Source of the DNA: a virus
Virus record (IMG/VR): IMGVR_UViG_3300037247_001290
Location: 1-26,848 of that record
DNA: 26,848 nt
Reading direction: 5' to 3' (one strand)
The notes below the pieces were generated by a model, which saw only the letters and a list, made by a program, of their open reading frames with translations, did not search any database and was not told the origin of the DNA. Every line of letters begins with the position of its first letter. Position 1 is the first letter of the stretch. This document shows, in pieces, positions 1 to 19,727 of the stretch. The position numbers were made by a program, and so were the translations under genes.

Positions 1-127
1 CGGTCTCTGTAACATATACCCACGCCGCAATACTAAACGGTTTAGTACCTGAGTCATCAAAGCTAAAATTTGCACTATCGTCAACTGTTATATATTTTGA
101 ACCACCAAAATTTAATGCGCCATTTAT
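1..127. repeat. Terminal direct repeat, left copy (circle closure)
   Basis: Positions 1-127 are identical, base for base, to the last 127 bases of the window. The coding frame of the tail gene passes through the join without a stop, and the two halves form one sensible protein. An odd-numbered overlap of 127 is what a de Bruijn assembler leaves when it closes a circle with k=127, so this is most likely an assembly overlap and not a biological terminal repeat. Confidence 0.93.
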
Positions 128-1192
128 TTTGCCGGTTTCATCTATCGTATCTGTATTTACCGAGCATACTCCGGCATGTGGGGCTACTGTTCCGCCAACC
201 GTTGTATTGGTCAATGATCCAGTAGCAATGTTTATCGTAAAATCAGGGTCGCCGGCAAATGAAGTACTGACAACCGAATACTGACCGTCATTTGCAGCCG
301 AGCCGTCTATTGTAAATTCTGAGCCGTTCGGGAACGACGACGACAGGTCCCCGTCACCTGTTATAGTGACAACATCTTCACCCGCCCCTCCATCGGTAAA
401 CCCATCTACTGTATATTGCGGCAAAGAAGATATAATATTTGTATTTGAGTCGTTGTCGTTTAGCTTCCACTGCCCAACAACATTACCTGATATGTTTGTG
501 CTTACGTCGGACAGGTGGAGTTGTAGCTTTCTGTCCATATCGAGACTGAGTCGCCATTCATTTATAACCGTCCCTGTGGTTTCATCCCACTTTGATAGGA
601 TATTTTGAAGGTCGTTCTGTTTGGTTACAAAACCCCATGCCATGATACTAAAAGGGTTAGTGCCTGAATCATCGAAACTTAAAGATGCGTCATTAGGTAC
701 GGTTATATTATACTGTCCGTCAAGATTAAAACATCCGTCAACCTTGCCCGTTTCCGCTATTAGATCTATACTCGCTGAGGCTGTGCCGTCATTGGGAACT
801 ACTGCAACCGCGTCGTCTACCGCCGTTCCGGTTGTCTCGTTTAGCTTCCAATGTGCAATCTGAGCGTCAAGTGCTGAAATATCGTCCGTCCCTACACCTG
901 AAAGTATCTGACCTCGATCCTTATAGAATCTTATGTATTCGTCGCCGTATTCCAGAATATACGCTTGTATGGTTGAAAACTTAAAAGGTATCAATCTGGT
1001 TTTCTTGGAACTGTCTTTGACTTCTGCGACGAATTTCAGGCCCGGCCTTCTCTGCGCAGGTCCGTATCGAGTGGGGAACATATTTTCAAGCAAGCGACAT
1101 GCGGAGTAGTATTTCTCCAAGTCGGATCGCTGATCGAGATCCGGACTCCATTCGCCGCCACTGAAACTTTGTTGTATTAAATCTAAAGCCAT
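1..1192 (-). CDS. Podovirus nozzle-like tail protein with LamG domains, N-terminal part
   Basis: This is the 5' part of a 1480-aa gene that continues through the circle join at 26721. No stop occurs in frame between 1192 and 2. The start ATG at 1192-1190 follows a TTAAGGAG ribosome-binding site. Residues 1-95 (MALDLIQQSFSGGEW, CRLLENMFP, GPAQRRPG, YGDEYIRFYKD) match the N-terminus of the tail-tube/nozzle family of podovirus-like phages (the T7 gp12 role: the channel between portal and cell). At about residue 112 the family pattern is interrupted by the first half of a LamG-like domain (AHWKLNETTG to LQLHLSD, 112-229). A second LamG-like domain then starts at about 238 (VVGQWKLND), with a small insert at 263-335. 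The role in attachment or ejection is inferred from the family; the boundaries are read by eye. Confidence 0.85.
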   Translation of the reverse strand, partial: MALDLIQQSFSGGEWSPDLDQRSDLEKYYSACRLLENMFPTRYGPAQRRPGLKFVAEVKDSSKKTRLIPFKFSTIQAYILEYGDEYIRFYKDRGQILSGVGTDDISALDAQIAHWKLNETTGTAVDDAVAVVPNDGTASASIDLIAETGKVDGCFNLDGQYNITVPNDASLSFDDSGTNPFSIMAWGFVTKQNDLQNILSKWDETTGTVINEWRLSLDMDRKLQLHLSDVSTNISGNVVGQWKLNDNDSNTNIISSLPQYTVDGFTDGGAGEDVVTITGDGDLSSSFPNGSEFTIDGSAANDGQYSVVSTSFAGDPDFTINIATGSLTNTTVGGTVAPHAGVCSVNTDTIDETGKINGALNFGGSKYITVDDSANFSFDDSGTKPFSIAAWVYVTET

Positions 1193-1596: not shown

Positions 1597-4500
1597 CTAT
1601 TCTATTCTTTGGGCCTTTTTCTTTTTTTCGTCCGGTTTGCTTTTCGCTAAAACAAACTGAAGTTTTTCTACCAGGTCCCTATTTACTTTTTCAATGCCTC
1701 GGCTCTTATATTCGCTGTCGATAGCCTCCCTGACCTTTCGGAGTGCCACGCGGTCTATGTTCTTCGTCCCTAAAGTTGCCTCAACTGCTCTCAATCCAAG
1801 ATCATAGTACGGGATAAACATATCCGCGGCTCTCGGTATCGCAACCGTAAGGGCTGCAAGTGCTTTGGAGTCACCCTTTGCGGCTCTTAACATGCTATTG
1901 TATACGTCGGTTATAGTTTCAACCGCGGCCTGCATTAAACCGCCTGATTCAAACTCAAGGAAATTAACAAAGTCGTAGGCTCCGAATTTCTTGCCGGTGA
2001 TCTTTTTCCATAATAGACTTGTAAGTGTTGACCATACTATAAGATTTACAAATACAAGTGCAGCTCTTTTCCTGGCCTCAAAAGTTCCCTCTGATTTTAC
2101 TGCTTTTTGTGCTTGTAATGTCGCCTTTTCCAGTGCCGCTTTCTTAAACAATGCCAGGTTTAATACCATTTTGCCAAGTTTCGTTTGCTCCGCTGGTGAT
2201 CGCTGCTCTCTGGCATAAAGGAAATGCGTGTTGTCGGTATGAACCTTTGCAACAAACCTTGACATAGCATCAACGCCGTCCCTTGCCAGTATGCCGAGTG
2301 CTAACTGCTGTTCTGGCTTTTGCATATCTGAGAATCTTGCTTCTTTCATTTTCTCGGCAAGAGTGATGTTTTTACTGAAAGCCCTTTTGATCCTATTGGT
2401 CTTAGCCCAAAAGCTGGCTGTCCGGTTCAATCTGTCTGATGCCGGGTATAGTGTCCGTCGCTGTATCCATTTGTTCAAGGTAGTGAGTCCAAGTCTTTTC
2501 TGCCCGATTATCGGCAAGTCAAACGGTTCTTCGCCCGCAAAAGCCCAGTCGCTTAACATTACTCTGTCTTGATGTACGAAAGTTTCCATATATTCAACGT
2601 CGCGGGGACTTAACTTTTTATTGTCGGGGTTCAAGAAGTCTTGGCGATCCTCGGCAAAGGCGGCGTTCTGTAAAAGGTTTCTGGCTGGTTTTATCGGATC
2701 TGCAAGTATAAGCGTAGTGATGGCTTGAGAGTATATCTTCCTTAAAACTTCCTCTACAAGTCCGTCCTCGTAGTTTGTCCTTTTGAGGTTGTCGAGATAA
2801 GTACTTATGGCGGCGCTGACCTTCTGTGGTTCGTCGAATTTCTCTAAAACATCGTCGGTAGCTCTAACAAGGGATTTTATCTTAGGCTGTAAAAACGACA
2901 TCATATCCATTTGCCTCATATACGAGTCAAGCCTTTGTAATATGTTCCGATCCTGCTTGGAATATTCTATATCCCTGACTTTGATATGCGCTTTACCTAT
3001 GGCAATATCTGGCATACGGTGCGTACTTACTCTGCGTATTACAGATTCGGTCGGCTCGTAACCTGACTTGATTATTCCCCAAGGTTGGGTTTTGAGGTAT
3101 TCTATAAGTGGGTCAAGCCCTTCGGAGTCGTAAATATCCAAAGCTTTGTCGATGGCTTTTTTATGGCGGAGGTATTGCGGCATTTGCGAAAGATTCTCTT
3201 TATGCTCGAAAAACTTGCCAAGCCTTGCCTGAAATTCGTATAATTTGAAAATCTCCTGTATTCTTTTGGCTATGGCTTTTTCTTCAGGAGTAATGTTCTC
3301 CGGACTTTTCGGTGCGTTTTTGAGTTTTGATTGGCTTGATATAAAATCGCTGACCCGTTGTAATGCCGCTTCTGATCTTGCTATTACTGTGAAATTCTCC
3401 ATTTCTTCAAGTGAATTGAGCAGCTTTCGCCTTTCCCTTAACCTGACTTGGTGGGTAAATGTCAAATCCTGCCATACATGATAAATAGGCTCGCCCGTGC
3501 GCTCCGCCATTCTCTGTGTAAAGAATCTCATAGCCAACAATCTGGCTGGTGATTTTGCCCCTAAAAATTCGTCCTTCTCCAAAATCTTGTCGTGTTCAAG
3601 GGCAATTTCGGAGTCTGCGTCTATCGCCCGCGCAAATGATTCGGTAGCTCTTAGTTTTTCGGCGGTATCGTGCATCCGGTTTATTACGTTCCGGCCTTCC
3701 TGTTGAGTGATAAATGCTTTGCTGTTGATATATTTCGGCAGCTTGCCGCCTGTTTCCTTTGCTAAAATATCGTCGAAAGCCTCATCTGTCATAAGTTCGG
3801 CATTTGTCAGATTGTCTTTTAGAGATTGTATTTGGCGTTCTGTTTTCAGTTTGACTACTTTCTTTTGGCCGATTATCTTTGGCCTGGCTCGCTTAATTGC
3901 TTTCAGGATAGCTCGGAGCTGTTCTTCGGTCCGGGGCTTTGTGCCGGTCAATCTCCGGGATCCGCCTTGTTGCAGCTTTATGTCGGAGAAGTCTTTGTCG
4001 GTCAAGCCTTTCTTTTTCTGTTCAATGTTGATTCTCTGGATTAAGAGTTTGGCTTCTCTGGTTTGCGGCGGCGGTCCCTTGGGCTTGCCTTTGATCCGTT
4101 CCAGCTTGCCTTCGAGTTTTCCTGGGGCTGCTGGTGTTATTTTGATAAAGTCGCCTTTTCGCGGTTCCAACTTGGTAACTGTAAACTTGCCGTCTTTTTC
4201 CCTGACAAAAGCTGGCTTCTTGGTTCTTGCGGCTATTTTTCCGGCTTTTTCGATTGCGATTTTTTCGGGGTCACTAACTTTCTTGACCTTATCCGCTTTA
4301 ATCGTTCTATCCAGTTCTCGTAAAATCTGCTGCTTCTTTCCGACATCGGTAATCTCCTGTAATGGAATTAGATCGGCTTCCAGGTCCGCAAGGTCAACGT
4401 CGTTTTCTTCGGCGTGCCTTGTGACTTCTTTATTTATTTCTGCGGCGGTAAAGCCGTTTTTAAGCATATCGTGTTTCAATGCGAATAGTTCTATGTCGAA

Positions 4501-6978
4501 AGCCGCGTCTGATCCCTGTGCGTCATTAAGCGCTTGCGCAAGTGCGGCTTCATGGATGGCCCCTTTGCCAGCCTTATTTGAATCTACAAATAATTCTATC
4601 TTATCCATAAACTCATCAAGGGTTGTATCTTGCGGTAAGCCGAGTTCGTCATGTTGTGAATCCCATCGCTTGCCGCCTGTTTCTACCAGGTCGAATTTCT
4701 TTAAGATATCTGGCCTGCCCTCGAATCTGGCTCTTATATCGCCGATTTCTGTACTGTCTACATTAAAAGATCCGCTTAGGTCTGGTAAATCGCCTACCGC
4801 GTCAAGTGCGGCCTGATATGGCCCGCTTTGTGTTATTTGGGTTTGTACCTTTTTGATTTCTGCATTGCGGGTTTTTGGAGTTATGTCAATGTCCGGAAAT
4901 TCGTCAGCATGTTTCAATACAAGTTCGTCCTCGATTTCAGTTAACCGCTTTATCTGCCGTGGAGTTCGTTTTTGGGCCGGTGTGCTGGTGATCGCTTTGC
5001 GCTCGTCCAAAAGCTGTCTGCTGGTTATTGTCGGCGGCTTGGCCGCTTCTGCTGGCTTGGCTGTAGGAGTGGGTTGGATTCGGTCTCTTGGTTGTAGAAA
5101 TTCTTCTGTTAATGGTTGGTTTATGAGTTCGTTAAATTTGTCTGGATTTTCTTTTGCAAATTTATTTCTCCATTTTGCAAAAGCTTCTTGTATCGGTTTG
5201 TCGAGTTTTGCGAAGTGCTGTTGAAGGTCCGCAACCGTAGCTTTGACTGGCGTAGCTTGTAGTCTTGGGTCTACTTTTTTGCCAGGTTCAGCGTCAAGAG
5301 GTACTAAAAAAGCAACTTTTCCGGTTTCTTCGTTCAGGTTAAAAAACATCCCTTTGAATTTCGGCGGAATGAGTTCTTTGAATTTCCCCTCTACGGCCTC
5401 TGGCTTGGCTTCTGCTGCTTTGGGGGCTATAATCGTCGACTCTACGGGAGTTACAGGCTTAGTCGGCTGCGTAGGCTCTAATTCGGCTACTGTGGCGGGT
5501 TCAGGGACTGTCGGTAGAGTCACTGTCGGAGCCTGTTTGCTAACCGAAGACGTAAAAGCCCTTCGCATGGCGTCGTTATTTATCTTGTCGATCTCTACTT
5601 GCGCCGCCTCGGTGTCACCCTTCACCATCAAGTCCAATATCTTGTCGGCTCGTTTCCCGGCAACGCCTTGCTTGACAAGATCAATTTTGACCCCTTGGCG
5701 AAACAGGTCAATCTGCTTGTTAATCTGCGCTTTCCGTTTCTGTGATACAATGCTCCGTCGCCCACTCCGTATATCAAGTACCACATTAGGGCCGGGAAGA
5801 AGAGCCATAGCTTGTGCCGCACCCTTAGTCGTTTCCCAAAGTCTCTGCGAGTTCTCCAGAATAAACTCTTTGACGCTTTCCTGCTGTGTTACATCACTTA
5901 GGCTCCCGGAAATCTTTTCAGCAGTTATCGCTATCATCTCTTGGACGACTTCCTCAAACACCTCCTGTGTCCAAGTCTTGCCGTACTTAATGGCTGCCGC
6001 TTTGACGACATCAATCATCACTGTTGCCGCAAGAGCCTCTGCGTTCTTTCTTCCACCGGGAATGAGTTTTGATACTTGTGAGTGTTCCACTATTGCATAA
6101 GGTATAGCCGCAATACCAGCCACTTGCTTGGCTATTTCAGGGTCATGTCCCTTGTCAATCATATTGGCATACATCGAGCCTGCCCCTTGCTTGTACCAAT
6201 ACACCATGGAGCCAACAGAGAACCCAATCTTGGTTCCTGTCATTGCACCTTTGGAAATCAAACCCGGCTCATCTGCAAGGGTGAGAACTTGCGGCCCTAA
6301 CTGTCCTAACACAAGACCTGCGCCTGCACCAATCAACATGCCTTCAAATGCAGTAGGTACAGCATCCCAATACCCTCTTGCCATGGCGGGTACAATTCTC
6401 GATGAGGCGTAGAATAATTCCGACACCTTATTGCCTTCGATAGGAACGGCCTCTTCAAAAGACTGCAACCTTTTCCTGTGAGCAAGTGCATCTTCCTCAG
6501 AACCCACGCCCTCAAAGACAGCACTGTATATTGCCTGATCGTTGACAGCAGCGGCATCGCCTCTCCTCAACGATTCTATTGACTTTTCAAAGAAACCACC
6601 CTCCATCGGATTTTTGGCGAATCTCTTAGATATCCTCTCCAGTTCGTCGCCATAGATAGCCTTCATCATGGCAGGTTGCATTATCCTCATGGTATCTATG
6701 TCGGCATCGAACATATCAGCCAACAGTATGGCTGAGGACATTCTATCTCTCTCGTCCCGTGGCTTATCGAGGGAATTAAATAGGTCGCCTGCAAGTTCTG
6801 CTTGATCGGTTGGTAGCCAGTCCTCGATAGGTTCACCGAGAACCATACGTTCTATATGTCCAGCAAGAGGAGATGTTATATCTTCCGGCTCTTGGGCTAT
6901 AAGCGAATCAATTCCGCTAACTGCCGAGACTTCGGCCTGCCCTTGTGCTTCGGCTATAAGATCATCTATTGCTGCCAT
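1597..6978 (-). CDS. Very large ejection-type virion protein (1793 aa)
   Basis: This is probably an internal virion protein ejected with the DNA, comparable in size and position to the largest core/ejection proteins of podoviruses (T7 gp16-like role); this is inferred from context, not from a recognised catalytic domain. The N-terminus is helical. Hydrophobic, glycine-rich stretches occur at about residues 213-260 (LIGAGAGLVLGQLG, IGFSVGSMVYW) and 290-300 (AGIAAIPYAIV), and another near the C-terminus (AALVFVNLIVWSTLTSLLW). A proline/threonine-rich linker lies at about 485-540 and long charged helices follow. The C-terminal region (FLYAREQRSPAEQTKLGK, ARDGVDAMSRFVAKVHT) resembles those of large phage polyvalent or internal virion proteins. 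The ATG at 6978 directly abuts the stop of the upstream 508-aa gene, so translation is likely coupled. I see no muramidase motif. Confidence 0.75.
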   Translation of the reverse strand: MAAIDDLIAEAQGQAEVSAVSGIDSLIAQEPEDITSPLAGHIERMVLGEPIEDWLPTDQAELAGDLFNSLDKPRDERDRMSSAILLADMFDADIDTMRIMQPAMMKAIYGDELERISKRFAKNPMEGGFFEKSIESLRRGDAAAVNDQAIYSAVFEGVGSEEDALAHRKRLQSFEEAVPIEGNKVSELFYASSRIVPAMARGYWDAVPTAFEGMLIGAGAGLVLGQLGPQVLTLADEPGLISKGAMTGTKIGFSVGSMVYWYKQGAGSMYANMIDKGHDPEIAKQVAGIAAIPYAIVEHSQVSKLIPGGRKNAEALAATVMIDVVKAAAIKYGKTWTQEVFEEVVQEMIAITAEKISGSLSDVTQQESVKEFILENSQRLWETTKGAAQAMALLPGPNVVLDIRSGRRSIVSQKRKAQINKQIDLFRQGVKIDLVKQGVAGKRADKILDLMVKGDTEAAQVEIDKINNDAMRRAFTSSVSKQAPTVTLPTVPEPATVAELEPTQPTKPVTPVESTIIAPKAAEAKPEAVEGKFKELIPPKFKGMFFNLNEETGKVAFLVPLDAEPGKKVDPRLQATPVKATVADLQQHFAKLDKPIQEAFAKWRNKFAKENPDKFNELINQPLTEEFLQPRDRIQPTPTAKPAEAAKPPTITSRQLLDERKAITSTPAQKRTPRQIKRLTEIEDELVLKHADEFPDIDITPKTRNAEIKKVQTQITQSGPYQAALDAVGDLPDLSGSFNVDSTEIGDIRARFEGRPDILKKFDLVETGGKRWDSQHDELGLPQDTTLDEFMDKIELFVDSNKAGKGAIHEAALAQALNDAQGSDAAFDIELFALKHDMLKNGFTAAEINKEVTRHAEENDVDLADLEADLIPLQEITDVGKKQQILRELDRTIKADKVKKVSDPEKIAIEKAGKIAARTKKPAFVREKDGKFTVTKLEPRKGDFIKITPAAPGKLEGKLERIKGKPKGPPPQTREAKLLIQRINIEQKKKGLTDKDFSDIKLQQGGSRRLTGTKPRTEEQLRAILKAIKRARPKIIGQKKVVKLKTERQIQSLKDNLTNAELMTDEAFDDILAKETGGKLPKYINSKAFITQQEGRNVINRMHDTAEKLRATESFARAIDADSEIALEHDKILEKDEFLGAKSPARLLAMRFFTQRMAERTGEPIYHVWQDLTFTHQVRLRERRKLLNSLEEMENFTVIARSEAALQRVSDFISSQSKLKNAPKSPENITPEEKAIAKRIQEIFKLYEFQARLGKFFEHKENLSQMPQYLRHKKAIDKALDIYDSEGLDPLIEYLKTQPWGIIKSGYEPTESVIRRVSTHRMPDIAIGKAHIKVRDIEYSKQDRNILQRLDSYMRQMDMMSFLQPKIKSLVRATDDVLEKFDEPQKVSAAISTYLDNLKRTNYEDGLVEEVLRKIYSQAITTLILADPIKPARNLLQNAAFAEDRQDFLNPDNKKLSPRDVEYMETFVHQDRVMLSDWAFAGEEPFDLPIIGQKRLGLTTLNKWIQRRTLYPASDRLNRTASFWAKTNRIKRAFSKNITLAEKMKEARFSDMQKPEQQLALGILARDGVDAMSRFVAKVHTDNTHFLYAREQRSPAEQTKLGKMVLNLALFKKAALEKATLQAQKAVKSEGTFEARKRAALVFVNLIVWSTLTSLLWKKITGKKFGAYDFVNFLEFESGGLMQAAVETITDVYNSMLRAAKGDSKALAALTVAIPRAADMFIPYYDLGLRAVEATLGTKNIDRVALRKVREAIDSEYKSRGIEKVNRDLVEKLQFVLAKSKPDEKKKKAQRIE

Positions 6979-8505
6979 TTATTCTCCAAATGCTTCCAAT
7001 ACTTCGTCAAGTGTTTTGTTTAACCGGAAAGCGGTTTTTGCTTTTTCGATGTCTGAGTCACTTAGGGTTTCAAATATTGACTTCTTTTTGAAAGCCTCAA
7101 ACCGCTTGCTTTGTAAAGTGGTTTTTTGTGCGCCAAATATTTTTGGCGTAAATAGCCCTGTAAAGAAACCCAATACCACTTTGTCGGCTGGCATTCTGGT
7201 TAGCGATTGTATCTTTTTTTCCGTTTCCTCGTCGGTGCGGGGTTTTTCTAAAGCCCATTTATCAAATTCATTTTTCATTTCTCCTTTTTCCCGGATCATT
7301 CTACCCTCTTGCTGGACAGAAATGTCCTCTATACCTTTTATACGCGCGTCGAATATTTCCTCGATAGCAGTAATGCCCCTTTTGTGAAATTCTCTTTTGG
7401 TCGGACTGTTATCTGTTGATTTCTCTGCAAGTTTAGTTCTAAGGGCTTTACCCGCTGTGCCGTCAAAATGTACCCCAACCCCTGCCGCGATAGCGTCAAT
7501 GGCAGTTTGTTTTTCTATGTTGCCGAGTGCAACCTGGTCTATCATATCAAATACTTTGTTCCATTCCGCCCAATTCATTGGGGTTTTTGTGCCGATAGAG
7601 TTCCGTAGTCTCTGCTGTTCTGCTTGGTCAAGTGATGATGCTTCAATGGCGCTTACCGCGTCGGGACTGTTGGAGTTTATTAGATCGTAGATTTTATCAC
7701 GTTCGACTTCTTTTTGCTCTTCGACCTTTTCCTTATCACCGGCTTTTTGGGCGTTATTTCTGGCATTGGCAGTTTCGGCAAGGCCTTTGAATATCTTCGG
7801 GTCAATGCCTTCAAGGTTCTCGGCGGTATCCAGCCAATCATTAGTAGCTTGCCAGTCTACTTCGCCGTCCGTCCTTGGAGGTCCAGCCGCCATAGCTTGC
7901 CGCCATAGGTCGGCGCGTGTCCAATCGTCGGTAGCTTTTTCAAGGTCAGAGGCCCCTTGGTTTGGAGTTCTTAATTTATCGTCTACCGCCCCGGCTGTAA
8001 GGCTTGCAGCTTCTTTTGTAAAGGTTTCCTTATCGGCGATCTTAGCAAGGTTTACTATGTTGTTGAAATATGCCTGGCCGTTTTTTACGGCGATCATTTT
8101 GATTTTCTTGGTTGCGTCAATTTTCTCAAGGCTGGCGTTGTTCAAGTCAGACCACGAATTATATTTTGTCGCTCCTGATTTATTCTTGGGCGCAAAACCT
8201 TTTAGGTCTGCTTTGAGTGCTTTGAAAGCTGCATCGTGTTCATTTGAATTATCAAAGTTTGTCCGCTGAAATTCTCCTATGCGATCTTGTGCCAGGCCCC
8301 TGGCTGTGTCATATTGCGAGTTGCCTTCTCGCTCAAACCATTTGAAAACTACGCCGGCGGTTCCGGTTAGTGCTGCTCCGGCCGCTTGTAATGTCTGAGC
8401 CTCAAGCTCTTGCCCGGTTCGGGATAGACCTACCGCATCCGCTCGCGGTAAAGTTTCCGGCTTAAATTGCTCTGTTGCAAAATTGGTTCCGAGTTTATTT
8501 GGCAT
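6979..8505 (-). CDS. Helical internal virion (ejection) protein (508 aa)
   Basis: This protein is almost entirely alpha-helical and charged, with a short alanine/glycine-rich patch near the N-terminus (AAGAALTGTAGVVF, about residues 41-54). Long coiled-coil-like stretches follow (KAGDKEKVEEQKEVERDKI), and there are no cysteine clusters or nuclease motifs. It lies between the gp13-like gene (2-bp gap) and the 1793-aa gene (0-bp gap), matching the T7-like order 13-14/15-16. That position is the main reason for assigning it to the ejection proteins. The sequence itself does not identify a family with certainty. Confidence 0.65.
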   Translation of the reverse strand: MPNKLGTNFATEQFKPETLPRADAVGLSRTGQELEAQTLQAAGAALTGTAGVVFKWFEREGNSQYDTARGLAQDRIGEFQRTNFDNSNEHDAAFKALKADLKGFAPKNKSGATKYNSWSDLNNASLEKIDATKKIKMIAVKNGQAYFNNIVNLAKIADKETFTKEAASLTAGAVDDKLRTPNQGASDLEKATDDWTRADLWRQAMAAGPPRTDGEVDWQATNDWLDTAENLEGIDPKIFKGLAETANARNNAQKAGDKEKVEEQKEVERDKIYDLINSNSPDAVSAIEASSLDQAEQQRLRNSIGTKTPMNWAEWNKVFDMIDQVALGNIEKQTAIDAIAAGVGVHFDGTAGKALRTKLAEKSTDNSPTKREFHKRGITAIEEIFDARIKGIEDISVQQEGRMIREKGEMKNEFDKWALEKPRTDEETEKKIQSLTRMPADKVVLGFFTGLFTPKIFGAQKTTLQSKRFEAFKKKSIFETLSDSDIEKAKTAFRLNKTLDEVLEAFGE

Positions 8506-8507
8506 AG

Positions 8508-8981
8508 TTACGCTCCTATTGAAACGTCCTGTTTATTTTGCTGAATTTCAACTCTGCTATATTGAAAAAGGTCCGTTCCGTCCGATTCGTGATTTCTCAT
8601 TATACCTTCAACCGTAAACCCTAAATACCTCAAATAACTCATTCCAGCCGGGAAGTCACGCCTGCAAGTGACTTGCACTCTGTGATATCCTCGCTGTTTA
8701 ATAATTTCGTTCATTTTATCTCTGACTACTTGAGGATCGATATGGTAACTGCCAATGTCAAGCGAATACATCGCCCACGCGAGGCCGACACCCGGTATAT
8801 AATAATCATGTAGGCCCGCACACCCCAACAATTCACCATCCCAAAAAAAACTAAAGCCTTCGCCGTGTGTCTCGTAACATTGCGCTAAATCGTCGGGGAA
8901 TTGTTGCGGTTTACGCCGCTTTTTACACCGCTCTATCATTTCCTCGCCATCTTCAACTTTGTATTTTTCGATTGATAGCAT
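8508..8981 (-). CDS. T7 gp13-like protein with GNAT acetyltransferase fold (157 aa)
   Basis: The GNAT-like pattern is visible: FFWDGELLGCAGL resembles beta strands 2-3, VTCRRDFPAGMSYLRYLGF resembles the helix and strand 5, and FTVEGIMRNHESDG resembles the common GNAT ending GF..EG..R......D. Phage proteins of this type (DUF2833, T7 gp13) sit between tail and internal virion genes and are needed for infectious virions; whether they acetylate anything is uncertain. The ATG at 8981-8979 is preceded by GGATAATCGGATA. A second, truncated version of this gene start lies at 23471, directly after the tail gene, which is the order expected in podoviruses. The stop is followed closely by the 508-aa gene. 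Confidence 0.7.
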   Translation of the reverse strand: MLSIEKYKVEDGEEMIERCKKRRKPQQFPDDLAQCYETHGEGFSFFWDGELLGCAGLHDYYIPGVGLAWAMYSLDIGSYHIDPQVVRDKMNEIIKQRGYHRVQVTCRRDFPAGMSYLRYLGFTVEGIMRNHESDGTDLFQYSRVEIQQNKQDVSIGA

Positions 8982-8994
8982 TATCCGATTATCC
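8947..8994. repeat. 48-bp repeat at the gp13-like gene start (copy 1)
   Basis: This block is about 90% identical (43 of 48 by my count) to 23437-23484. Read on the minus strand it covers the first 12 codons of the gp13-like gene plus about 15 bases upstream. Those upstream bases, at the other copy, are the last codons of the tail gene (GGATATTCGGATAATG there, GGATAATCGGATAATG here). The homology starts exactly where the 201-aa gene ends, suggesting a recombination junction. Confidence 0.75.
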
Positions 8995-9599
8995 TAAAAA
9001 CAACTATAATTACTTACCGCTATTGTCTGCTGTGGCGACCTGTCCACCTGCCTGATTAGTTCTTTCCACCCGTAATAAGCATAAAGTAAACTTTGCATTG
9101 CGGGACTATCGCCATATTTTACCGCTGCGGGATTTTGGAGTTCCTCGGCTTTTAACCTCAAATTCAAAAGGCTTTCGTCGCTGATCTCAATAGTACCCTT
9201 TTTGCGTTCCCTCCATATTTCCGGCAATAGCAAAAGAAAAGGCCGGTGCTCATCCTGTCCGTATAATATCGCTGAATGACTTACCCCAATTTCATATCCC
9301 TTTGCCGTAACCTCCTTTGAGTTATAACCCGAACCATCTCCAAATATAAAATCGCCGGCGTGCCGATAAGAGCCGCCCCTACAATGAAACTTTGTCATTA
9401 ACCATTTCAACTGCTCGGTAAGTTCAAGGACATCTTGGCTTTCGGCTTCGTCAAGTAGTTTTATACTTCGCTCATTTTTCAGGACTCCAAAGTATGATAC
9501 AAAACCCGGCTGACCTGCCGATGGTAGAGCAAAGCCAACTACAAAAGACCTGTACTTTTTCAACTCCTCAACACTGATCTTGTCTTTTTGTCTATCCAT
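8994..9599 (-). CDS. Unknown terminase-linked protein (201 aa)
   Basis: I do not recognise this protein with confidence. Its ATG overlaps the stop of the large terminase gene (TAATG), so it is translationally coupled to it. The N-terminal half reads as alternating strands and a helix (FVVGFALPSAGQPGFVSYFG, LKNERSIKLLDEAES, VLELTEQLKWLM) followed by HAGDFIFGDGSGYNSKEV. This vaguely recalls an RNase-H-like layout, but I cannot assign catalytic residues. The C-terminal half is helical. It may assist packaging. Its stop falls exactly where a repeat shared with the tail-gene end begins (8994), so the C-terminus could have been altered by a recombination event; I see no proof either way. Confidence 0.6.
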   Translation of the reverse strand: MDRQKDKISVEELKKYRSFVVGFALPSAGQPGFVSYFGVLKNERSIKLLDEAESQDVLELTEQLKWLMTKFHCRGGSYRHAGDFIFGDGSGYNSKEVTAKGYEIGVSHSAILYGQDEHRPFLLLLPEIWRERKKGTIEISDESLLNLRLKAEELQNPAAVKYGDSPAMQSLLYAYYGWKELIRQVDRSPQQTIAVSNYSCF

Positions 9600-10873
9600 T
9601 ATTTTCCCTCTATCCCATAAATCGCATACCGCAACGAATCAATCGTATGATCGTCGATCTTTAGCGGCATATCTTTAGCGTCTGCATTATCGGTTCCCTC
9701 TGCCCACCGATAACCCTGCATCGCACGAATGGTATTCCGGCAAGTATCAAATATATACAGTCTCGGTTTTCCGTCTGGTTGGACTTTCAGGCAAGCTTGA
9801 ACTGATTCTATACCTAAGTTTACATCTTTTCTGGCGGGGGTAGTCATAATGCCTAAAGCGTTTAACTCGGCGCGTCCCTGTGCATCGTGATCGGCCCACG
9901 TCATACGGTATCTATTGCCTTTGCTTATTTGCTTAATACGCTCAGCATGACACCCCAAAAGTTCTCTGGCTTGCTCGTACTCGGCGTAAACATACCACCG
10001 CTGGTCGCCGTCCCTGGCAAGCCATAGACAAGCGAAAGGATTATTAAAGCCAAAGTCTATCGCTCTGAATCGTGACCATTCAGGAGGTATTTCAAACGGC
10101 TTGATAACATGTGTGTCTTTTGTGAAGTCCCTAAAGACCGCTCCAAGGAACGCTGCGAAGTGTCCTTTGATTCTTGTCTCTTTTACGGAATCCGGCCATT
10201 CAGCTATCATCAAGTCAATTTCCGCATCGTCGATATAACCGCCCCGGCTTTTGCGATTGTCCTCAAGGTTTGCATAAAAGACTTCATCGCTCGGCGGTAA
10301 GTTCTTGATCCGTTCCTCAAACCAAGGTTGAAAAACAATCGGTGTCATTGTCTGCGCAGAAAACCCCGACTTGTCTAATAGCCGGGCTTGTATCTCCTGC
10401 CAGATACCTAAAGCGTCGCTTTTACACTGCTCATCGCCGTAGAAAGCGTCGATTGCTCTACCCTGAAAGCTTCTCCGTCCCTGATCGTAGCTTTTCAGTT
10501 CAATGGTATTACCGTTAATCAAGTCGATCTGTTTTGGAATGTTCTCGGCTTTGTTGTGCCATACCACGTTAGCAACCTGGCTTTCGGGTAGGTACTTTAG
10601 GATCTTTTCTTCGTACAGAATCTTGCCGACCAGTGACCAGGTATCAGTCACACACCATATCACGGCGTTCGGAGGCGTCGGTCTATACGGATGGATCCCC
10701 AAAGCAAAAGAGCATAAGTCATAGCCGGTATTACTTTCGGATTTGCCCGACCTGTTTCCGCCAAGTAACCACCTGAACTTTGCAGGGTTCTTGTGAAAAG
10801 CTTTTGGGGCGGGTAGCGGCTTATACGTCAATATAGCCTCGCCCGCTTTGCGAATCGTATCGTTAGTCAGCAT
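9599..10873 (-). CDS. terL: Terminase large subunit (424 aa)
   Basis: This is the ATP-driven DNA packaging motor with a headful or site-specific nuclease. Counting from the ATG at 10873, Walker A is GGNRSGKS at residues 38-45 and Walker B ends at YGDEQ (about 145-149). The nuclease domain has RAIDFGFNNP (Asp near 273), ADHDAQGRAEL (Asp near 328) and KIDDHTIDSLRYAIYG near the C-terminus, giving the expected set of acidic residues. A longer frame starts at 10912 but has no ribosome-binding site and overlaps the small terminase gene by 50 bases. I prefer the inner ATG, which overlaps by 11 bases and has GGGAG upstream. A portal gene would normally follow; here a 201-aa gene follows and no portal is seen. 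Confidence 0.93.
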   Translation of the reverse strand: MLTNDTIRKAGEAILTYKPLPAPKAFHKNPAKFRWLLGGNRSGKSESNTGYDLCSFALGIHPYRPTPPNAVIWCVTDTWSLVGKILYEEKILKYLPESQVANVVWHNKAENIPKQIDLINGNTIELKSYDQGRRSFQGRAIDAFYGDEQCKSDALGIWQEIQARLLDKSGFSAQTMTPIVFQPWFEERIKNLPPSDEVFYANLEDNRKSRGGYIDDAEIDLMIAEWPDSVKETRIKGHFAAFLGAVFRDFTKDTHVIKPFEIPPEWSRFRAIDFGFNNPFACLWLARDGDQRWYVYAEYEQARELLGCHAERIKQISKGNRYRMTWADHDAQGRAELNALGIMTTPARKDVNLGIESVQACLKVQPDGKPRLYIFDTCRNTIRAMQGYRWAEGTDNADAKDMPLKIDDHTIDSLRYAIYGIEGK

Positions 10874-11738
10874 TTCGTTTGAGAATCTCCCTGATGTTTT
10901 CGCATTCTTCATCGCTCATTGGTTTTGCGGTGATTATCGTTACTAATGATTTGCCCTTTTGGGCGTTATCCTCAAGGTAGAAGCCGATATGTTTGCCCAT
11001 TTTCTCGATTGCCCCAAGTTTATCGTGTAGCTTAAATTGGAAGTTTCGTGTTTCGTATTCCCGGTCACCGTCCTTGTTTGATGTTATGTTAATAACCTGC
11101 TTGATCGACTCTATTGCCGCCAACTTACGGCTATCCATCTGGCCGAAGTCCTTACCAATAACATTGCCCTCATCGTCTATCCGTAGATAATCGTCAATGT
11201 TAGAAAACCCTATCTTCTTTAGCTCATCCATTAACATCTCTGCTGTAACGCCACACGCTTCAGATAGTTTGGCTTGAAGGTGGAAAATTCGGCCTACAAC
11301 CTTGATATTTTTAAGTAACTTGCTGCCGTTTTGTTCTGCGGTTGACTGACTTGCTTTTGGATAAGCCTGTTTGTAAGCATCTGCAACTACAAGTTTTACG
11401 ACATACTCTTGGCTGAATCGCTCATGTTTGTTATTCTTTAGTGGTTTGGAGTAGTCTATTGCGTTTTCTGTTTTCTTCTTGGCTTCGACCTTGGATTGGA
11501 GTTGTTTGATTCTTGCCTTAACCTGAGTAAACCTGAGTAAACCTGGTCCGTTTGTTTCGGCTGTTGCCTTAGAGCATTTATACACTTTGAAGTATGCTTT
11601 TGCGGCGTTAGGGTCAATGTTGTACGCTTGACAGAATCGCTCCCTGTGCGGGGTGAGTTTCTTAGCAGCTTTCTTCTTTGTTGCTTTACGTTTAGCCTTC
11701 TTGGGTGCGGCTTTCTTAGCTGTTTTCTTTTTAGTCAT
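10863..11738 (-). CDS. terS: Terminase small subunit with two HTH repeats (291 aa)
   Basis: This is the DNA-recognition subunit for packaging. After a lysine/alanine-rich N-terminal tail (residues 1-27), two similar Terminase_2-type HTH units occur in tandem: LTPHRERFCQAYNIDPNAAK...NGPGLLRFTQVKARI at about 28-80, and HERFSQEYVVKLVVADAYK...NGSKLLKNIKVVGRI at about 104-155. One unit is usual. The C-terminal part (GVTAEMLMDELKKIGFSNIDDYL) matches the region after the HTH in this family. A 12-bp tandem repeat (AACCTGAGTAAACCTGAGTA region, 11521-11544) falls inside the first unit. AAGGGATTTTGAACT precedes the ATG. The gene leads the packaging/virion block. Confidence 0.9.
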   Translation of the reverse strand: MTKKKTAKKAAPKKAKRKATKKKAAKKLTPHRERFCQAYNIDPNAAKAYFKVYKCSKATAETNGPGLLRFTQVKARIKQLQSKVEAKKKTENAIDYSKPLKNNKHERFSQEYVVKLVVADAYKQAYPKASQSTAEQNGSKLLKNIKVVGRIFHLQAKLSEACGVTAEMLMDELKKIGFSNIDDYLRIDDEGNVIGKDFGQMDSRKLAAIESIKQVINITSNKDGDREYETRNFQFKLHDKLGAIEKMGKHIGFYLEDNAQKGKSLVTIITAKPMSDEECENIREILKRNAD

Positions 11739-11741
11739 AGT

Positions 11742-11760
11742 TCAAAATCCCTTGTAACTG
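11742..11760. repeat. 19-bp direct repeat at the small terminase leader
   Basis: TCAAAATCCCTTGTAACTG here matches TCAAAATCCCTTGTAATTG at 12760-12778 with one difference. Both lie just upstream of a minus-strand gene and supply the same AAGGGATTTTGA ribosome-binding context. Together they bracket the second recombinase gene in direct orientation. Confidence 0.7.
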
Positions 11761-11779
11761 TCAATATCAATCTAACAAT

Positions 11780-11797
11780 CGGGCTTGTTTTTGCCCG
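11780..11797. terminator. Possible weak stem-loop after the recombinase gene
   Basis: CGGGC and GCCCG form a 5-bp stem around an 8-base loop, in the 134-base gap between the recombinase stop and the small terminase start. T-rich sequence follows it on the plus strand (GTTCGGTTTTCGTTTTT), not on the coding strand. As a terminator for the minus-strand operon it is weak. Confidence 0.25.
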
Positions 11798-11872
11798 TTC
11801 GGTTTTCGTTTTTACGTTTACCACTATAATTCCTTATAACTCTTTTCTTACTGACGACTTACGATATAGGTG

Positions 11873-12712
11873 TTATGGTATACTATTAGAAGCGATAACA
11901 TCCGTGCCGGTCCCCCCACCAAACATTAACCCATCCATAGCGTCCATCTGCTGTAACTTCTCTTTATTTAAGGTCTTAGCATAAATGCGGGTTGTCTCGA
12001 TTGATGAGTGTCCAAGCTGCTCGGCAACGAAGTTTATATCTTTTTTATAATTATATAATCCAGTGGCAAACGTATGGCGAAGGCAATGACAGTGAAAGTC
12101 TGGATCGCCCAGGATCCTTTTGATTCTATTGGCCCGGTACCGCAGATCATTGTAGGTAAGTGATCGCCCACCTGATTTAGTAAACACCGGCTGCCGGCGT
12201 CCTTTGCCAGCCGTACACCGTTTGAGTATTGCCGCAACGTGCTCACCTATCTTAACGGTTCGCTGCTTGCATCCTTTGCCCCTCAGCACGTTAATCATCC
12301 GCTTACTACAATCGCAGTCAGCAACACGCAGAGAACAAAGCTCAGCGGCCCTCAGGCCAGTACCGACCAGCACATCATAAATATCAAGCAACCCAGGCAA
12401 ACCGCCCAGGGTCAGCCTATCCTGGCTAATCTGGGCGGCTGATCGAAAATCACCTGAATTAAGCTGGGTTTTTTTGACAATCTTCTTTGATGTGCTAACC
12501 TCGCGATATTGCAATAGTTCCTGAACCGTCCTCGCTCTAAACTCTTTGCCATCGGCAGTCAACAAACCCTCGGCGTTGAGTTCCTTTGCAATCTGATGGA
12601 GAGATGTAGGGCCAGCCGCACCTTTGCGCTTGCGGCGCTTCAATACAATCAAGTCCCGTGCCTGTATTCCAGCTTTGCTTTTAGCAAATGTTTTGCGGCC
12701 TGGCCTTGCCAT
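11873..12712 (-). CDS. Tyrosine recombinase with serine-recombinase-like N-terminal HTH (279 aa)
   Basis: The catalytic domain is complete: GTGLRAAEL (Arg121), RGKGCKQRTV (Lys146), HCLRHTFAT (His209, Arg212), LGHSSIETTRIYAKT (His235, Tyr244). The N-terminal 75 residues do not look like the usual SAM-like core-binding domain. They read SLHQIAKELNAEGLLTADGK and ARTVQELLQ, the pattern of the DNA-binding Recombinase domain of large serine recombinases. The ATG at 12712 has GAAAGG seven bases upstream; a TTG start at 12763 is possible but less likely. The gene lies between the replication and packaging blocks and is bracketed by a 19-bp direct repeat. A role in dimer resolution, DNA inversion or a host dif-like reaction is possible; only the recombinase chemistry can be inferred. 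Confidence 0.85.
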   Translation of the reverse strand: MARPGRKTFAKSKAGIQARDLIVLKRRKRKGAAGPTSLHQIAKELNAEGLLTADGKEFRARTVQELLQYREVSTSKKIVKKTQLNSGDFRSAAQISQDRLTLGGLPGLLDIYDVLVGTGLRAAELCSLRVADCDCSKRMINVLRGKGCKQRTVKIGEHVAAILKRCTAGKGRRQPVFTKSGGRSLTYNDLRYRANRIKRILGDPDFHCHCLRHTFATGLYNYKKDINFVAEQLGHSSIETTRIYAKTLNKEKLQQMDAMDGLMFGGGTGTDVIASNSIP

Positions 12713-12759
12713 TATACTACCTTTCAATTGTTCGGTGTAGCGATCACTTCTTTTCTCGC

Positions 12760-12778
12760 TCAAAATCCCTTGTAATTG
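12760..12778. repeat. 19-bp direct repeat at the recombinase leader
   Basis: This is the partner of 11742-11760, 1018 bp away in the same orientation. It may be a duplicated gene leader or a recombination footprint. Its TTGAGC part could serve as an alternative TTG start for the recombinase. Confidence 0.7.
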
Positions 12779-13307: not shown

Positions 13308-14093
13308 TCACGTTTTCAGTTTACGTCTATCCGGTCCGATCATTTCAATCATTGTGGTTGTACTTAGTCGGCTTTCAATTCGCATATCAAAAGTTGATGC
13401 AAGATCGGCGGTGGTTTTATTCGATGATAAATAAGTTGACAATTTTCGTTCTTGCCGCTTATCGAGGATCGAATATAAAATGCCGTAGACAAAATCAGTC
13501 TCTATTTTCGACCGTAAGCCGATGTCGTCGATAACCAGCTTGTCAACTTCTACCAGGCCTTTGATAAGATCATCCTCGGTTTTGCCGCCCTGACTATTCA
13601 TCGTAGCCCGGATCTCTCGGCAAAACGCATCAAGGTTTATTTTTTTGCAGTTAAAACCCTCACAGAGGAAGTGTTTGACCAGGGCTGCCATTGCCCATGT
13701 TTTACCAACTCCAACATTACCCCATAGGAAAATATCACCGGGGGCTGCAAGTAATTTGTCGGCAATTTCTACGCCGACAAGGTCTGCATCGATATAGGCT
13801 TCGCCGACAACCTCGATGTATTTCTTGAGAATGTATTGCGGTTTTAAACCCGCCTTGCGTTGGGCTATGCCGCTGCAATAACTACATAGCTTCAACGTCC
13901 TGTACGGCTCGTCCCTTTCAGCTCTACGCCGCGATTGATCTGCGCGGGTTTCCATGGGCTTCGGTCTCACCCTGCAAGTCTCACACTTAGCGGACAAAAG
14001 GTTTCGGACGGTTTCCGCTATTGTTGGCGGAGTTTCCGGCTGCCGTACTTTCAGATTGTCGTTGCTCTGATTGAGTTGTTTTTCCGTTGTCAT
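13308..14093 (-). CDS. DnaC-like helicase loader ATPase with zinc-finger N-terminus (261 aa)
   Basis: This AAA+ ATPase would load the host replicative helicase at the phage origin. It has four cysteines that could bind zinc (C37, C40 and C70, C73), Walker A GNVGVGKT at 125-132, Walker B LVIDD at 186-190, a sensor-like YLSSN at 221-225 and an Arg-finger-like RIESRL near 238-243. GGAG lies 10 bases before the ATG. It follows the initiator gene, as expected for an O/P-type or DnaD/DnaC-type pair. The sequence coding for its residues 13-40 has a diverged, frame-shifted copy just upstream (14090-14191). The 51-aa protein at 14822 also resembles its N-terminus. Confidence 0.88.
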   Translation of the reverse strand: MTTEKQLNQSNDNLKVRQPETPPTIAETVRNLLSAKCETCRVRPKPMETRADQSRRRAERDEPYRTLKLCSYCSGIAQRKAGLKPQYILKKYIEVVGEAYIDADLVGVEIADKLLAAPGDIFLWGNVGVGKTWAMAALVKHFLCEGFNCKKINLDAFCREIRATMNSQGGKTEDDLIKGLVEVDKLVIDDIGLRSKIETDFVYGILYSILDKRQERKLSTYLSSNKTTADLASTFDMRIESRLSTTTMIEMIGPDRRKLKT

Positions 14094-14191
14094 CTGCTTT
14101 TAACTCCACACTTCGTACACTCAGCGGATAAAAGACTTCGCAGGACTTCCGCCATTGGTCCCGGTGTGTTGGGCTGTTGTACTTGTTTGTT
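14090..14191 (-). pseudogene. Fossil copy of the helicase-loader N-terminus
   Basis: Read in a frame different from the initiator gene, this stretch encodes NKQVQQPNTPGPMAEVLRSL and then LSAECTKCGVKSR before a TGA that overlaps the loader ATG. It aligns without gaps with loader residues 13-40 (NLKVRQPETPPTIAETVRNL then LSAKCETC), 15 identities in 28 by my count. Most of it is overprinted by the initiator C-terminus. A 21-codon frame from ATG at 14155 remains open with a 4-base overlap to the loader, so a micropeptide cannot be excluded. Confidence 0.6.
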
Positions 14192-14834
14192 CGTTTGCTC
14201 TCGACTCCAACAAATCAAAATGTTTTCGTAGCTTATTTGTCGATAATATATTATGCTGCCAGAATGAATCCGCTTGACACCATCGAATAACCTTTTCGAT
14301 TCTATCCTTTGTCCGATTATCTCGGGTGAACATTAACCCAACTTCTTTCGCCCACTTCTGGAGGTCGGGTTTTTTCAGGTCTGGTTTTCTTTTGAGGATC
14401 AATTCAAGAAGTAGCGACGACAAATAAATCTCATCTCCTTCAAGGGAAAAAGATTTATCTTTTTTCTTGGTTGCGGTTTTAGTTACTTTGTTATGGTCGG
14501 CTGTCGTGTCGGTACTTACCCCCCCTGATGTCGGTATCCCTGCCGACATTGTGTCGGTATCTTCTACCGACATTGTGTCGGTATTAAACTTGAGACATCT
14601 ATCATTCCGACCAGTTCCATAATTGATTATATGCCCGCTTTTCCGCAACCTTGCCAACGCTCTTTCTATAGTTCTTTTGTCCGTTTGTAAGGCGGCGGCG
14701 ATCTTGCCATTTGATAGGGTTAAGCCTTTGGCGCCAAAATTATATGCTAATGCAACAATGCTTAATTCATAAATACCAGTAAGCGACAAAGAAAAAAGTT
14801 GGGTAGGTATTCGGATGTGTGTTATATCGCCCAC
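14121..14834 (-). CDS. Replication initiator, HTH (lambda O/DnaD-like role) (237 aa)
   Basis: The N-terminal winged helix-turn-helix (about residues 30-75: LTLSNGKIAAALQTDKRTIE, RALARLRKSGHI) is the type found in phage replication initiators. The middle (84-120) is a threonine/serine-rich linker encoded by the iteron repeats at 14507-14583. The C-terminal domain ends in SFWQHNILSTNKLRKHFDLL, a pattern common at the end of phage replication proteins. The last ~25 residues (from NEQTSTTAQ) lie on the fossil copy of the loader gene in another frame, so this tail is probably a recent extension. The start is GTG at 14834, overlapping the upstream gene by 13 bases. An origin inside the initiator gene is the lambda arrangement. 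Confidence 0.8.
   Translation of the reverse strand: MGDITHIRIPTQLFSLSLTGIYELSIVALAYNFGAKGLTLSNGKIAAALQTDKRTIERALARLRKSGHIINYGTGRNDRCLKFNTDTMSVEDTDTMSAGIPTSGGVSTDTTADHNKVTKTATKKKDKSFSLEGDEIYLSSLLLELILKRKPDLKKPDLQKWAKEVGLMFTRDNRTKDRIEKVIRWCQADSFWQHNILSTNKLRKHFDLLESRANEQTSTTAQHTGTNGGSPAKSFIR
14507..14583. other. Candidate replication origin: TGTCGGTA iterons
   Basis: TGTCGGTA occurs four times on the plus strand at 14507, 14529, 14552 and 14576, with spacings of 22, 23 and 24 bp. Inverted partners at 14541 (TGCCGACA) and 14565 (TACCGACA) make two 19-bp palindromes, the second perfect (TACCGACATTGTGTCGGTA). The cluster lies inside the initiator gene, in its linker-coding region, as in lambdoid origins. 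Confidence 0.72.
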
Positions 14835-16590: not shown

Positions 16591-16902
16591 TCATTTTAAG
16601 ATACCGAGCCTCTCGAGTATCTTGGTAACGGTACCGCTTTGCCATTTACAGCCGGTCCGGGTCGGTCTATTCTCGCGGGTAAGAACCTTGGCGATTCGAT
16701 AGCAGGATAGGCGATCATCGCCTGGGCGTTTCCGGTATAGCTGTTTGATCCGATTGACGGTATCAGCTTCGCCCGGTAGATATCCGAAAGGTTTCCGGCC
16801 CTCGCAGCGGCCATCCTTAGCCCGTTTCGCGTCACGTCCCTTTTTGAGTCTGTCCAGGAGCAAGGCTTTGTCGATCTGTGATAATCCTTTGCCGGTTTTC
16901 AT
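16591..16902 (-). CDS. Serine-recombinase DNA-binding domain without catalytic domain (103 aa)
   Basis: RDAKRAKDGRCEGRKPFGYL, followed by TVNRIKQLYR and SCYRIAKVLTRENRPTRTGC KWQSGTVTKILERLG, matches the Recombinase domain (PF07508-like) of large serine recombinases. That domain normally follows a resolvase catalytic domain with a nucleophilic serine. No catalytic part is present here and none lies upstream. I prefer the ATG at 16902, seven bases after AGAGAG; an ATG two codons earlier (16908) is also possible. As a lone DNA-binding protein it may act as a regulator or accessory factor. The N-terminus of the recombinase at 11873 has a similar HTH. Confidence 0.72.
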   Translation of the reverse strand: MKTGKGLSQIDKALLLDRLKKGRDAKRAKDGRCEGRKPFGYLPGEADTVNRIKQLYRKRPGDDRLSCYRIAKVLTRENRPTRTGCKWQSGTVTKILERLGILK

Positions 16903-16939
16903 AAGCATACTCTCTTTTCTGAATTACACGTTTTCAAGT

Positions 16940-17104
16940 TTAGGCTGTTTGGAGAGGTTCGGATTTTGGGAGAGTCTCAAAAGATTCCAACAAAAAAGAG
17001 ACGCGCTCAATCGGCCAACCCCTTAGAAGCTGGCTAATCTTGCGTATTTGCAGCTCTTTTTGAAAGTCGATAACTGGCGTTTCATTAGTACCTGAATTCT
17101 TCAA
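16940..17104 (-). CDS. Small protein, tandem paralogue of the upstream gene (54 aa)
   Basis: The TTG start at 17104 overlaps the stop of the upstream gene (TTGA), with GGGG about eight bases before it. The first 28 residues (KNSGTNETPVIDFQKELQIR, KISQLLRG) are closely similar to the upstream protein (KNSKTNEMPVMDFQKELDIR, KLGQLLRD). After that the two diverge; this copy ends SFLLESFETLPKSEPLQTA. It is a tandem gene duplication that kept its reading frame, which argues that both copies are translated. The function is unknown. Confidence 0.65.
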   Translation of the reverse strand: MKNSGTNETPVIDFQKELQIRKISQLLRGWPIERVSFLLESFETLPKSEPLQTA

Positions 17105-17325
17105 GATTCATCCCCTTTTTGCGTAACGAGAGTAAGGCGTTCTCTTTGCTGTGCAACAGTAAGGGGTTCTCGCTGTTCAGGCTGCACCCGCAGGCGGACC
17201 TGATACAGTAAAGAAAAAACGTATTCCGAAGAAAAAGAATCCCTTAGAAGCTGGCCAAGTTTGCGGATGTCGAGTTCTTTCTGAAAGTCCATTACCGGCA
17301 TTTCGTTGGTTTTTGAGTTCTTCAC
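17101..17325 (-). CDS. Small unknown protein of the ArdC-like operon (74 aa)
   Basis: The ATG at 17325 overlaps the stop of the ArdC-like gene (ATGA), so the two are coupled. The N-terminal 28 residues (VMDFQKELDIRKLGQLLRD) are shared with the downstream 54-aa paralogue; the C-terminal half (QVRLRVQPEQREPLTVAQQR) is basic and glutamine-rich. I do not recognise a family. Its place beside an antirestriction-type domain suggests an early or anti-host function, which is inference only. Confidence 0.65.
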   Translation of the reverse strand: MKNSKTNEMPVMDFQKELDIRKLGQLLRDSFSSEYVFSLLYQVRLRVQPEQREPLTVAQQRERLTLVTQKGDES

Positions 17326-17684
17326 GATGCCCCCCCCGTCTCATCGGTCTGGGTGATATGAAAAACGGTTGTATTGCGGCGCTTGTTGACAGTCTTGATC
17401 TTAACATCATCGGTCTTTTCGTCCTTTTCTTTCACGTCAACAGGGATAAAGGTGCGTATCTTCACGCCGTGCTGACCTTTGCGGACTTGCCGACCTTGCG
17501 CCCGCCATGCCTGATAAGTAAATACATTGTTCCGGGGTTTGATCTCACTTTCACTAAGACCCATAGCGACAAAGCCAGCTATGATGATCGGAAAGTTTTT
17601 AAGTGAGGTTCCATTTTTCGCCCTGTCCAGCGACAAGGCTTGTACTTCATTGACTTTACTTCGCTTTTCTGTTACAGTAACCAT
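17322..17684 (-). CDS. ArdC N-terminal-like ssDNA-binding protein (120 aa)
   Basis: NVFTYQAWRAQGRQVRKGQH followed by GVKIRTFIPV matches the core of the ArdC N-terminal domain (N..TY..W...G..V.KGe.g..i), a ssDNA-binding module of plasmid antirestriction proteins. The metallopeptidase-like C-terminal domain of ArdC is absent; a basic tail (KIKTVNKRRNTTVFHITQT) follows instead. I start it at ATG 17684, eight bases after GGAG; an upstream in-frame ATG at 17714 lacks a ribosome-binding site. It is the first gene of a coupled operon (120, 74, 54, 103 aa) with its own consensus-like promoter. It probably acts early, protecting entering DNA or coating ssDNA. Confidence 0.72.
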   Translation of the reverse strand: MVTVTEKRSKVNEVQALSLDRAKNGTSLKNFPIIIAGFVAMGLSESEIKPRNNVFTYQAWRAQGRQVRKGQHGVKIRTFIPVDVKEKDEKTDDVKIKTVNKRRNTTVFHITQTDETGGAS

Positions 17685-17714
17685 GTTAATATCTCCATCA
17701 TAGATATTGACCAC

Positions 17715-18099: not shown

Positions 18100-18420
18100 T
18101 TAACCTTGTCGGTCGGTATCGTAATCGGCCTGCATAATTTTTGCAACCTTACCAATTACTACCGTCCTTGCGCTATTGGATTCGGCAGTTTGACAGCCCT
18201 TTGCGAATCCCCTGGATAAAGCCGCTGGCTTCGCCTGTGTTGCGTTGAGGGTATAATCTATACGGGCGGCGGGGGCGTTCGTCCACTGGTGAGGACGTGA
18301 GGCGGTATTTACTATGCTCTGGAATATTCGGGCACTCATAGGGCACTCATTTTTTGAAAGCCTCGTTTTCAAGTCGCAACTAAAGGAGATTAACTGTTGT
18401 TGTGTTAATTCCCGTTCCAT
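18100..18420 (-). CDS. Doubtful ORF downstream of the integrase (106 aa)
   Basis: The frame is open and ends 15 bases before the well-supported 60-aa gene. However, its first 27 codons fall on a repeat that is non-coding at 1481, it contains the tandem GAGTGCCC site, and the start at 18420 has no clear ribosome-binding site. An internal ATG at 18339 would give 79 aa (MSARIFQSIVNTASRPHQWT...). No family is recognised. It may be a real small gene built partly over a repeat, or only an open stretch. Confidence 0.3.
   Translation of the reverse strand: MERELTQQQLISFSCDLKTRLSKNECPMSARIFQSIVNTASRPHQWTNAPAARIDYTLNATQAKPAALSRGFAKGCQTAESNSARTVVIGKVAKIMQADYDTDRQG
18330..18348 (-). repeat. Tandem GAGTGCCC site B
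   Basis: The minus strand reads GAGTGCCCTATGAGTGCCC, with an 11-bp period. It lies 149 bp beyond the integrase stop and overlaps the start of dispersed repeat copy 3. Confidence 0.65.
18341..18403. repeat. Dispersed repeat copy 3
   Basis: This copy shares a 22-bp identical block (GGGCACTCATTTTTTGAAAG plus CC), the following GTTTT.AAG and GATTAACTGTTGTT with 1498-1560, in the same orientation. The two sites would split the circle into about 9.9 kb and 16.8 kb. Confidence 0.6.
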
Positions 18421-19699: not shown

Positions 19700-19727
19700 A
19701 ATCTCATCCTTTTCATCAAGCAAAGAC

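Follow-up and report, generated by a model that had tools for sequence, protein, structure and literature searches.

Introduction

Can a viral element that carries its own packaging motor and injection parts dispense with genes for a head? The question is raised by a small closed circle of viral DNA. The window, meaning the whole stretch analysed here, is the virus record IMGVR_UViG_3300037247_001290 (G000), 26,848 nt. An earlier sequence-only reading described terminase, ejection proteins and a tail nozzle without portal or capsid, and offered two explanations, a satellite that borrows the heads of a helper or a defective prophage circle. The relatives described below favour the satellite, while the defective reading retains a rearrangement that left a relic of gp13.

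Gene content of the window

Read along the minus strand, the main genes follow one another in this order:

14121 to 14834, minus strand: replication initiator, O/DnaD-like (PHROG_2514, E=7e-30)
13308 to 14093, minus strand: DnaC-like helicase loader (PHROG_50, E=4e-31)
11873 to 12763, minus strand: second tyrosine recombinase, 296 aa, upstream of TerS (PHROG_216)
10863 to 11738, minus strand: TerS, small terminase, 291 aa (PHROG_51, E=2.4e-39; Pfam Terminase_2, E=2.6e-32)
9599 to 10912, minus strand: TerL, large terminase, 437 aa (PHROG_5653 and PHROG_2; 16-row alignment A1)
8994 to 9599, minus strand: TerL companion, 201 aa (AlphaFold and Foldseek; family alignment A2)
8508 to 8981, minus strand: gp13-like / GNAT-like virion-associated protein, 157 aa (PHROG_4177, E=9e-15)
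6979 to 8505, minus strand: ejection-type protein, 508 aa, helical (homology to a 505-aa protein of podovirus G001)
1597 to 6978, minus strand: giant ejection-type protein, 1793 aa (position and size)
2 to 1192, minus strand: nozzle (tail tubular B), N-terminal part with lectin region (PHROG_376)
23471 to 26848, minus strand: nozzle, C-terminal part with LamG lectin domains (PHROG_376, E=3e-147; Laminin_G_3; 61-63% to the nozzle of L022)
18497 to 19723, minus strand: tyrosine integrase, 408 aa (PHROG_1, E=5e-43)

A recombinase-like fragment lies at:

16591 to 16908: recombinase-like fragment

The content and order first described hold for TerS, TerL, gp13-like protein, two ejection-type proteins (the 508-aa one by homology, the 1793-aa one by position and size) and nozzle, and the block of TerS, TerL and companion does run straight to gp13. 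The TerL motifs are intact, with Walker A GGNRSGKS, Walker B FYGDEQ and the nuclease Asp motifs. An integration and replication module is formed by two integrases, the initiator and the DnaC-like loader; these had been anticipated with a single integrase, and the tyrosine recombinases number two (11873-12763 and 18497-19723). A tyrosine recombinase ahead of TerS is seen in complete and head-less relatives alike (L005, L008, L009, L014, L021, L057). Relatives of the 408-aa integrase adjoin tRNA genes in G009, G006, L143 and L144; a tRNA end as the integrase site of the window was considered and rejected, no tRNA-like sequence being found near it. The claim that a tail fibre is absent needs qualification, as the nozzle carries LamG lectin domains that could have a receptor-binding role.

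Several further observations concern the remaining DNA. The plus-strand gene at 21465-23159 is host-like, with FGE-sulfatase and PKD domains, and is likely a moron or captured host DNA. A 99-nt direct repeat, 76% identical (17017-17115 and 17238-17336), lies inside small early ORFs and is a partial duplication within them. The 130-aa protein encoded at 17322-17714 has an ArdC N-terminal domain, ArdC being an anti-restriction factor.

Search for head genes

With PHROGs and Pfam, no portal, capsid, scaffold, adaptor or endolysin was found in the window. HMMs for two portal types and for the capsids of relatives, the G001 capsid (PF20911) falling inside the mcpT7 set, were run with --max on the six-frame translation of the circle and gave a best E of ~1, with controls at E<1e-80. 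Searched against whole records, portal alignments A4 and A6 found nothing in the window and were positive for complete relatives. The genes for a complete particle (portal, capsid, scaffold, adaptor) are absent from the closed circle; set beside the complete-podovirus complement of TerL, portal, capsid, adaptor and nozzle, the window is without portal and capsid. The first reading had found these genes and the endolysin unrecognisable, and the searches agree; nor did the profile searches and the structure matches obtained give any portal or HK97 signal. It had also held that no free space remained, which is correct for the late operon, where room for portal and capsid is lacking, and too strong for the rest, where 21465-23159 and several unassigned early ORFs remain. 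No gene for capsid reshaping or helper blocking was recognised in the window.

The TerL companion

The AlphaFold model of the 201-aa protein has a pLDDT of 71, and its top Foldseek matches are TerL nuclease domains, with SPP1 G2P first (E=1.9e-4), followed by G20c, D6E and T4 gp17. The companion is therefore predicted to have a TerL-nuclease-like fold. No row of the family alignment A2 has the first-strand catalytic Asp, and at Glu169, which most rows conserve, the window has Gln; because of these two changes, nuclease activity appears doubtful. Members of the family lie next to TerL both in complete phages and in loci without a head. The 201-aa protein was considered as a hidden portal or capsid and rejected, on the grounds of its TerL-nuclease-like fold and its presence in complete phages. 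The family of this stand-alone protein is broad, and the gene is doubled in L007 and L008.

Homologies of the injection genes

The complete podovirus G001 (IMGVR_UViG_3300041402_000217, 49.4 kb) has the order TerS, TerL, portal, capsid (PF20911), adaptor, nozzle, gp13, a 147-aa-plus frame, the 505-aa protein and a giant. The 508-aa protein of the window matches the 505-aa protein at 44% over 279 aa, and the latter lies between gp13 and the giant; this homology to a non-portal protein rules out the 508-aa protein as a portal. Its single-sequence model was poor (pLDDT 48) and gave no structure matches. The nozzle is 61% identical to that of G001. G001, G002 and G004 each have a giant at the distal late end, which the 1793-aa protein resembles in position and size; it is classed as a giant ejection-type protein by these two features, clear sequence homology not having been found. 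For the 508- and 1793-aa proteins, a single-protein viral scan returned no close relatives, and an alignment scan returned only G001. The late genes of G001 also include a DegT-type aminotransferase (L137:6504-7649) and other sugar-type genes.

In Pelagibacter phage HTVC010P the order is TerL, portal, capsid, nozzle and gp13-like, and gp13 lies downstream of the nozzle in Pelagibacter phages and in L022. G001 and HTVC010P resemble the window in nozzle and gp13, G001 also in the 505/508-aa protein. In contrast to the window, both are complete phages with portal and capsid, and the TerL of G001 falls outside the close TerL family of the window. That family co-occurs with the T7-like portal type, which G001 shares.

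Recurrence among viral relatives

Viral contigs and genomes were searched for TerL relatives. Ejection-type genes come immediately after terminase and companion in four lineages or more. A mid-size protein begins ~12, 13 and 77 nt after the companion in L009, L010 and L011, respectively, and a giant comes next, all three being fragments whose contigs end inside the giant, so that head genes could lie beyond. Their giants match those of the complete phages G004 (E=2.5e-76), G001 (3e-24) and G002 (5e-69), respectively, which stand at the far late end with the portal-capsid block between TerL and giant. No sequence homology of the three mid-size proteins to their complete-phage counterparts was found. 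In the complete types L012, L017, L020, L056, L057, L059 and L063, the portal lies 0-6.5 kb after the companion, the distance in L063 exceeding 6 kb. L068 was examined as a head-less candidate and rejected, a portal having been found further off.

Encoded in G006 (18.6 kb) are TerS, TerL and companion, together with an initiator, a primase-helicase, xis and an integrase whose end lies on tRNA-Arg. It also has a virion protein that is 60% identical to a protein beside the G002 giant, and no portal was found within the 18.6 kb of this fragment, whose left end is missing. In the lineage of G006, TerL is, judged from a dN/dS of 0.12 (L014-L021), under purifying selection.

Chromosomal relatives in Planctomycetota

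A related 13.6-kb element was found in a Planctomycetota MAG (G009) between direct repeats of 33+14 nt that represent the 3' end of tRNA-Arg. The att repeats are exact and the integrase lies beside the intact tRNA. Its genes are TerS, an intein-bearing TerL, the companion, primase-helicase, integrase and one resembling an initiator; no head gene was found in its 13.6 kb. The intein sits in the Walker A motif of TerL (L031:8819-11179).

Among host genes in Phycisphaerae, orphan pairs of TerL and companion were detected at three loci: L028 and L029, which share a genome, and L030 on chromosome CP070806. The TerL motor motifs are intact at all three (around 9600-12200), TerS was read in L030, and neither integrase nor head genes were recognised within ~9 kb. 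The TerL dN/dS between L028 and L029 is 0.08, a value that includes the history before isolation. The TerL family has four chromosomal copies in 161 genomes of the order, each of them in a tRNA-bounded element or an orphan pair; portal alignments gave no match in these genomes, a weak negative. In two further Phycisphaerae genomes, an integrase overlapping or abutting a tRNA has a TerS-like gene and a more distant TerL as neighbours.

In the TerL tree, head-bearing rows cluster above chance, head-poor and ejection-type rows occur in several places, and the head-lacking elements are not one clade. The scatter of head-poor rows implies more than one transfer of terminases between complete phages and head-less elements.

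Rearrangement and alternative explanations

Relative to the order in G001, the head block is gone between companion and gp13, and the nozzle is placed behind the giant. Four features mark these changes:

8947 to 8994, minus strand: junction of the 201-aa stop, the last 15 nt of a nozzle gene and the gp13 start; site of the missing head block
23437 to 23484, minus strand: relic of the nozzle end and first gp13 codons, 48 nt, 90% identical to 8947-8994
1498 to 1567: att-like repeat 1, between giant and nozzle, ~60-nt gapped match to 18341-18410
18341 to 18410: att-like repeat 2, beside the 3' end of the 408-aa integrase, match to 1498-1567

The relic reads MLTIEKYKAEDG and diverges thereafter. 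The gp13 relic behind the nozzle is proof of rearrangement. The att-like repeats lie 16.84 kb apart and share the motif CGGGCACTCAT, which occurs 5 times vs 0.3 expected; the two copies suggest that two segments were joined. No match to the att-like repeat was found elsewhere among viral contigs. A simple deletion between the gp13 repeats was considered and rejected, as it leaves the position of the nozzle unexplained.

These traces are the strength of the foremost alternative, in which the circle is a defective derivative of a temperate podovirus, plasmid-like or an excised dead prophage, whose head block was removed and nozzle moved by recombination, perhaps at the gp13/nozzle junction and the att-like sites. 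In G001 and Pelagibacter phages the nozzle canonically precedes gp13, and in the window the nozzle bears a relic of gp13 and gp13 a relic of the nozzle; the doubled att-like sites and the recombinase-like fragment point the same way. However, every large structural and packaging ORF is intact, three other contigs repeat the terminase-ejection junction with unrelated giants, and the relic copies differ by 10%, which rules out one simple recent deletion. A defective origin is considered unlikely, though a serious contender.

An assembly artefact, whether chimeric or produced by the collapse of a larger phage genome, is improbable. The record comes from an uncultivated virus, and the first 127 bases of the window equal the last 127 exactly (circle length 26,721 bp), which is the mark of an assembly self-closed at k=127; the same 127-bp end mark, resembling k-mer closure, is present in the complete podovirus G001. 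The nozzle nevertheless runs as a single 1480-aa frame through the circle join (~residue 397), and a single alignment to the nozzle of L022 (residues 354-1309, 61% identity) covers that join. A loss of several kilobases at 8994 had been raised as a way in which the sequence-only reading could fail; the only repeat at this junction, 48 nt and 90% identical, could not collapse at k=127 because it is too short and too diverged. Similar terminase-ejection junctions in other contigs also speak against an artefact.

That the circle is a complete phage with portal and capsid diverged past recognition is very improbable: early ORFs of 282, 142 and 106 aa match no family and the majority of PHROGs lack a function, but the 508-aa protein, gp13 and nozzle have relatives in G001 and the companion has relatives in the phages L012, L017 and L057, all with separate portal and capsid, and the leftover unknowns are early genes, none a portal-sized frame.

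The circle is judged somewhat likely to be a satellite-like element that brings its own motor and injection parts and needs the heads of a helper. Such a head-less element is favoured over a dead recombinant because of the recurrence among relatives and the intact genes.

Comparison with known satellites

cf-PICIs are integrative satellites with their own TerS and TerL that carry the head and take tails (PMC10690885, PMC11389934). The window likewise encodes TerS and TerL; cf-PICIs encode capsid, protease, portal and connectors, whereas the window has injection parts and no head set. PICIs and SaPIs carry integrase and replication genes, and some redirect packaging through their own TerS (PMC10690885). 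The window shares integrase and replication genes with them, and TerS with some PICIs; they use the TerL of the helper, whereas the window has a TerL with intact motifs, the TerL-like companion, ejection proteins and nozzle. MiniFlayer and MulchRoom are satellites with terminase, to which MiniFlayer adds a tail fibre (PMC10690885). Terminase is common to both and the window, yet they encode portal and capsid and the window does not. The Pseudomonas satellite AH14b (~17 kb) has integrase, primase and one tail-assembly gene and no capsid genes (PMC4936722). Capsid genes are lacking in AH14b and the window alike; terminase is not recognisable in AH14b, in contrast to TerS and TerL here. No satellite with TerS, TerL and injection parts but without a head is described in the literature searched, in a search that was incomplete.

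Proposed life cycle and implications

The host is probably a Planctomycetota bacterium, and the element probably temperate, with the circle as its excised or replicating form. During infection by, or induction of, a helper podovirus with a compatible T7-gp8-like portal, that podovirus would supply capsid, scaffold, portal and adaptor. The TerS of the element would recognise its own DNA and its TerL would fill helper heads. Its ejection proteins and nozzle would then be built into the helper particles, allowing injection of the element DNA.

More broadly, and tentatively, there may exist a Planctomycetota class of satellites that steals only the head, keeping its own motor and injection machinery and pirating shell and portal. 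The injection machinery of such a class may have been taken repeatedly from different podoviruses, making it the mirror image of cf-PICIs. Known satellites either borrow an entire particle or make their own heads and borrow only the tails. If the present reading is true, virion modules would be pirated in the reverse direction too, with own motor and injection parts and borrowed heads. This would help to explain chromosomal terminase genes that occur without phage head genes, and portal compatibility would become a test for the choice of helper.
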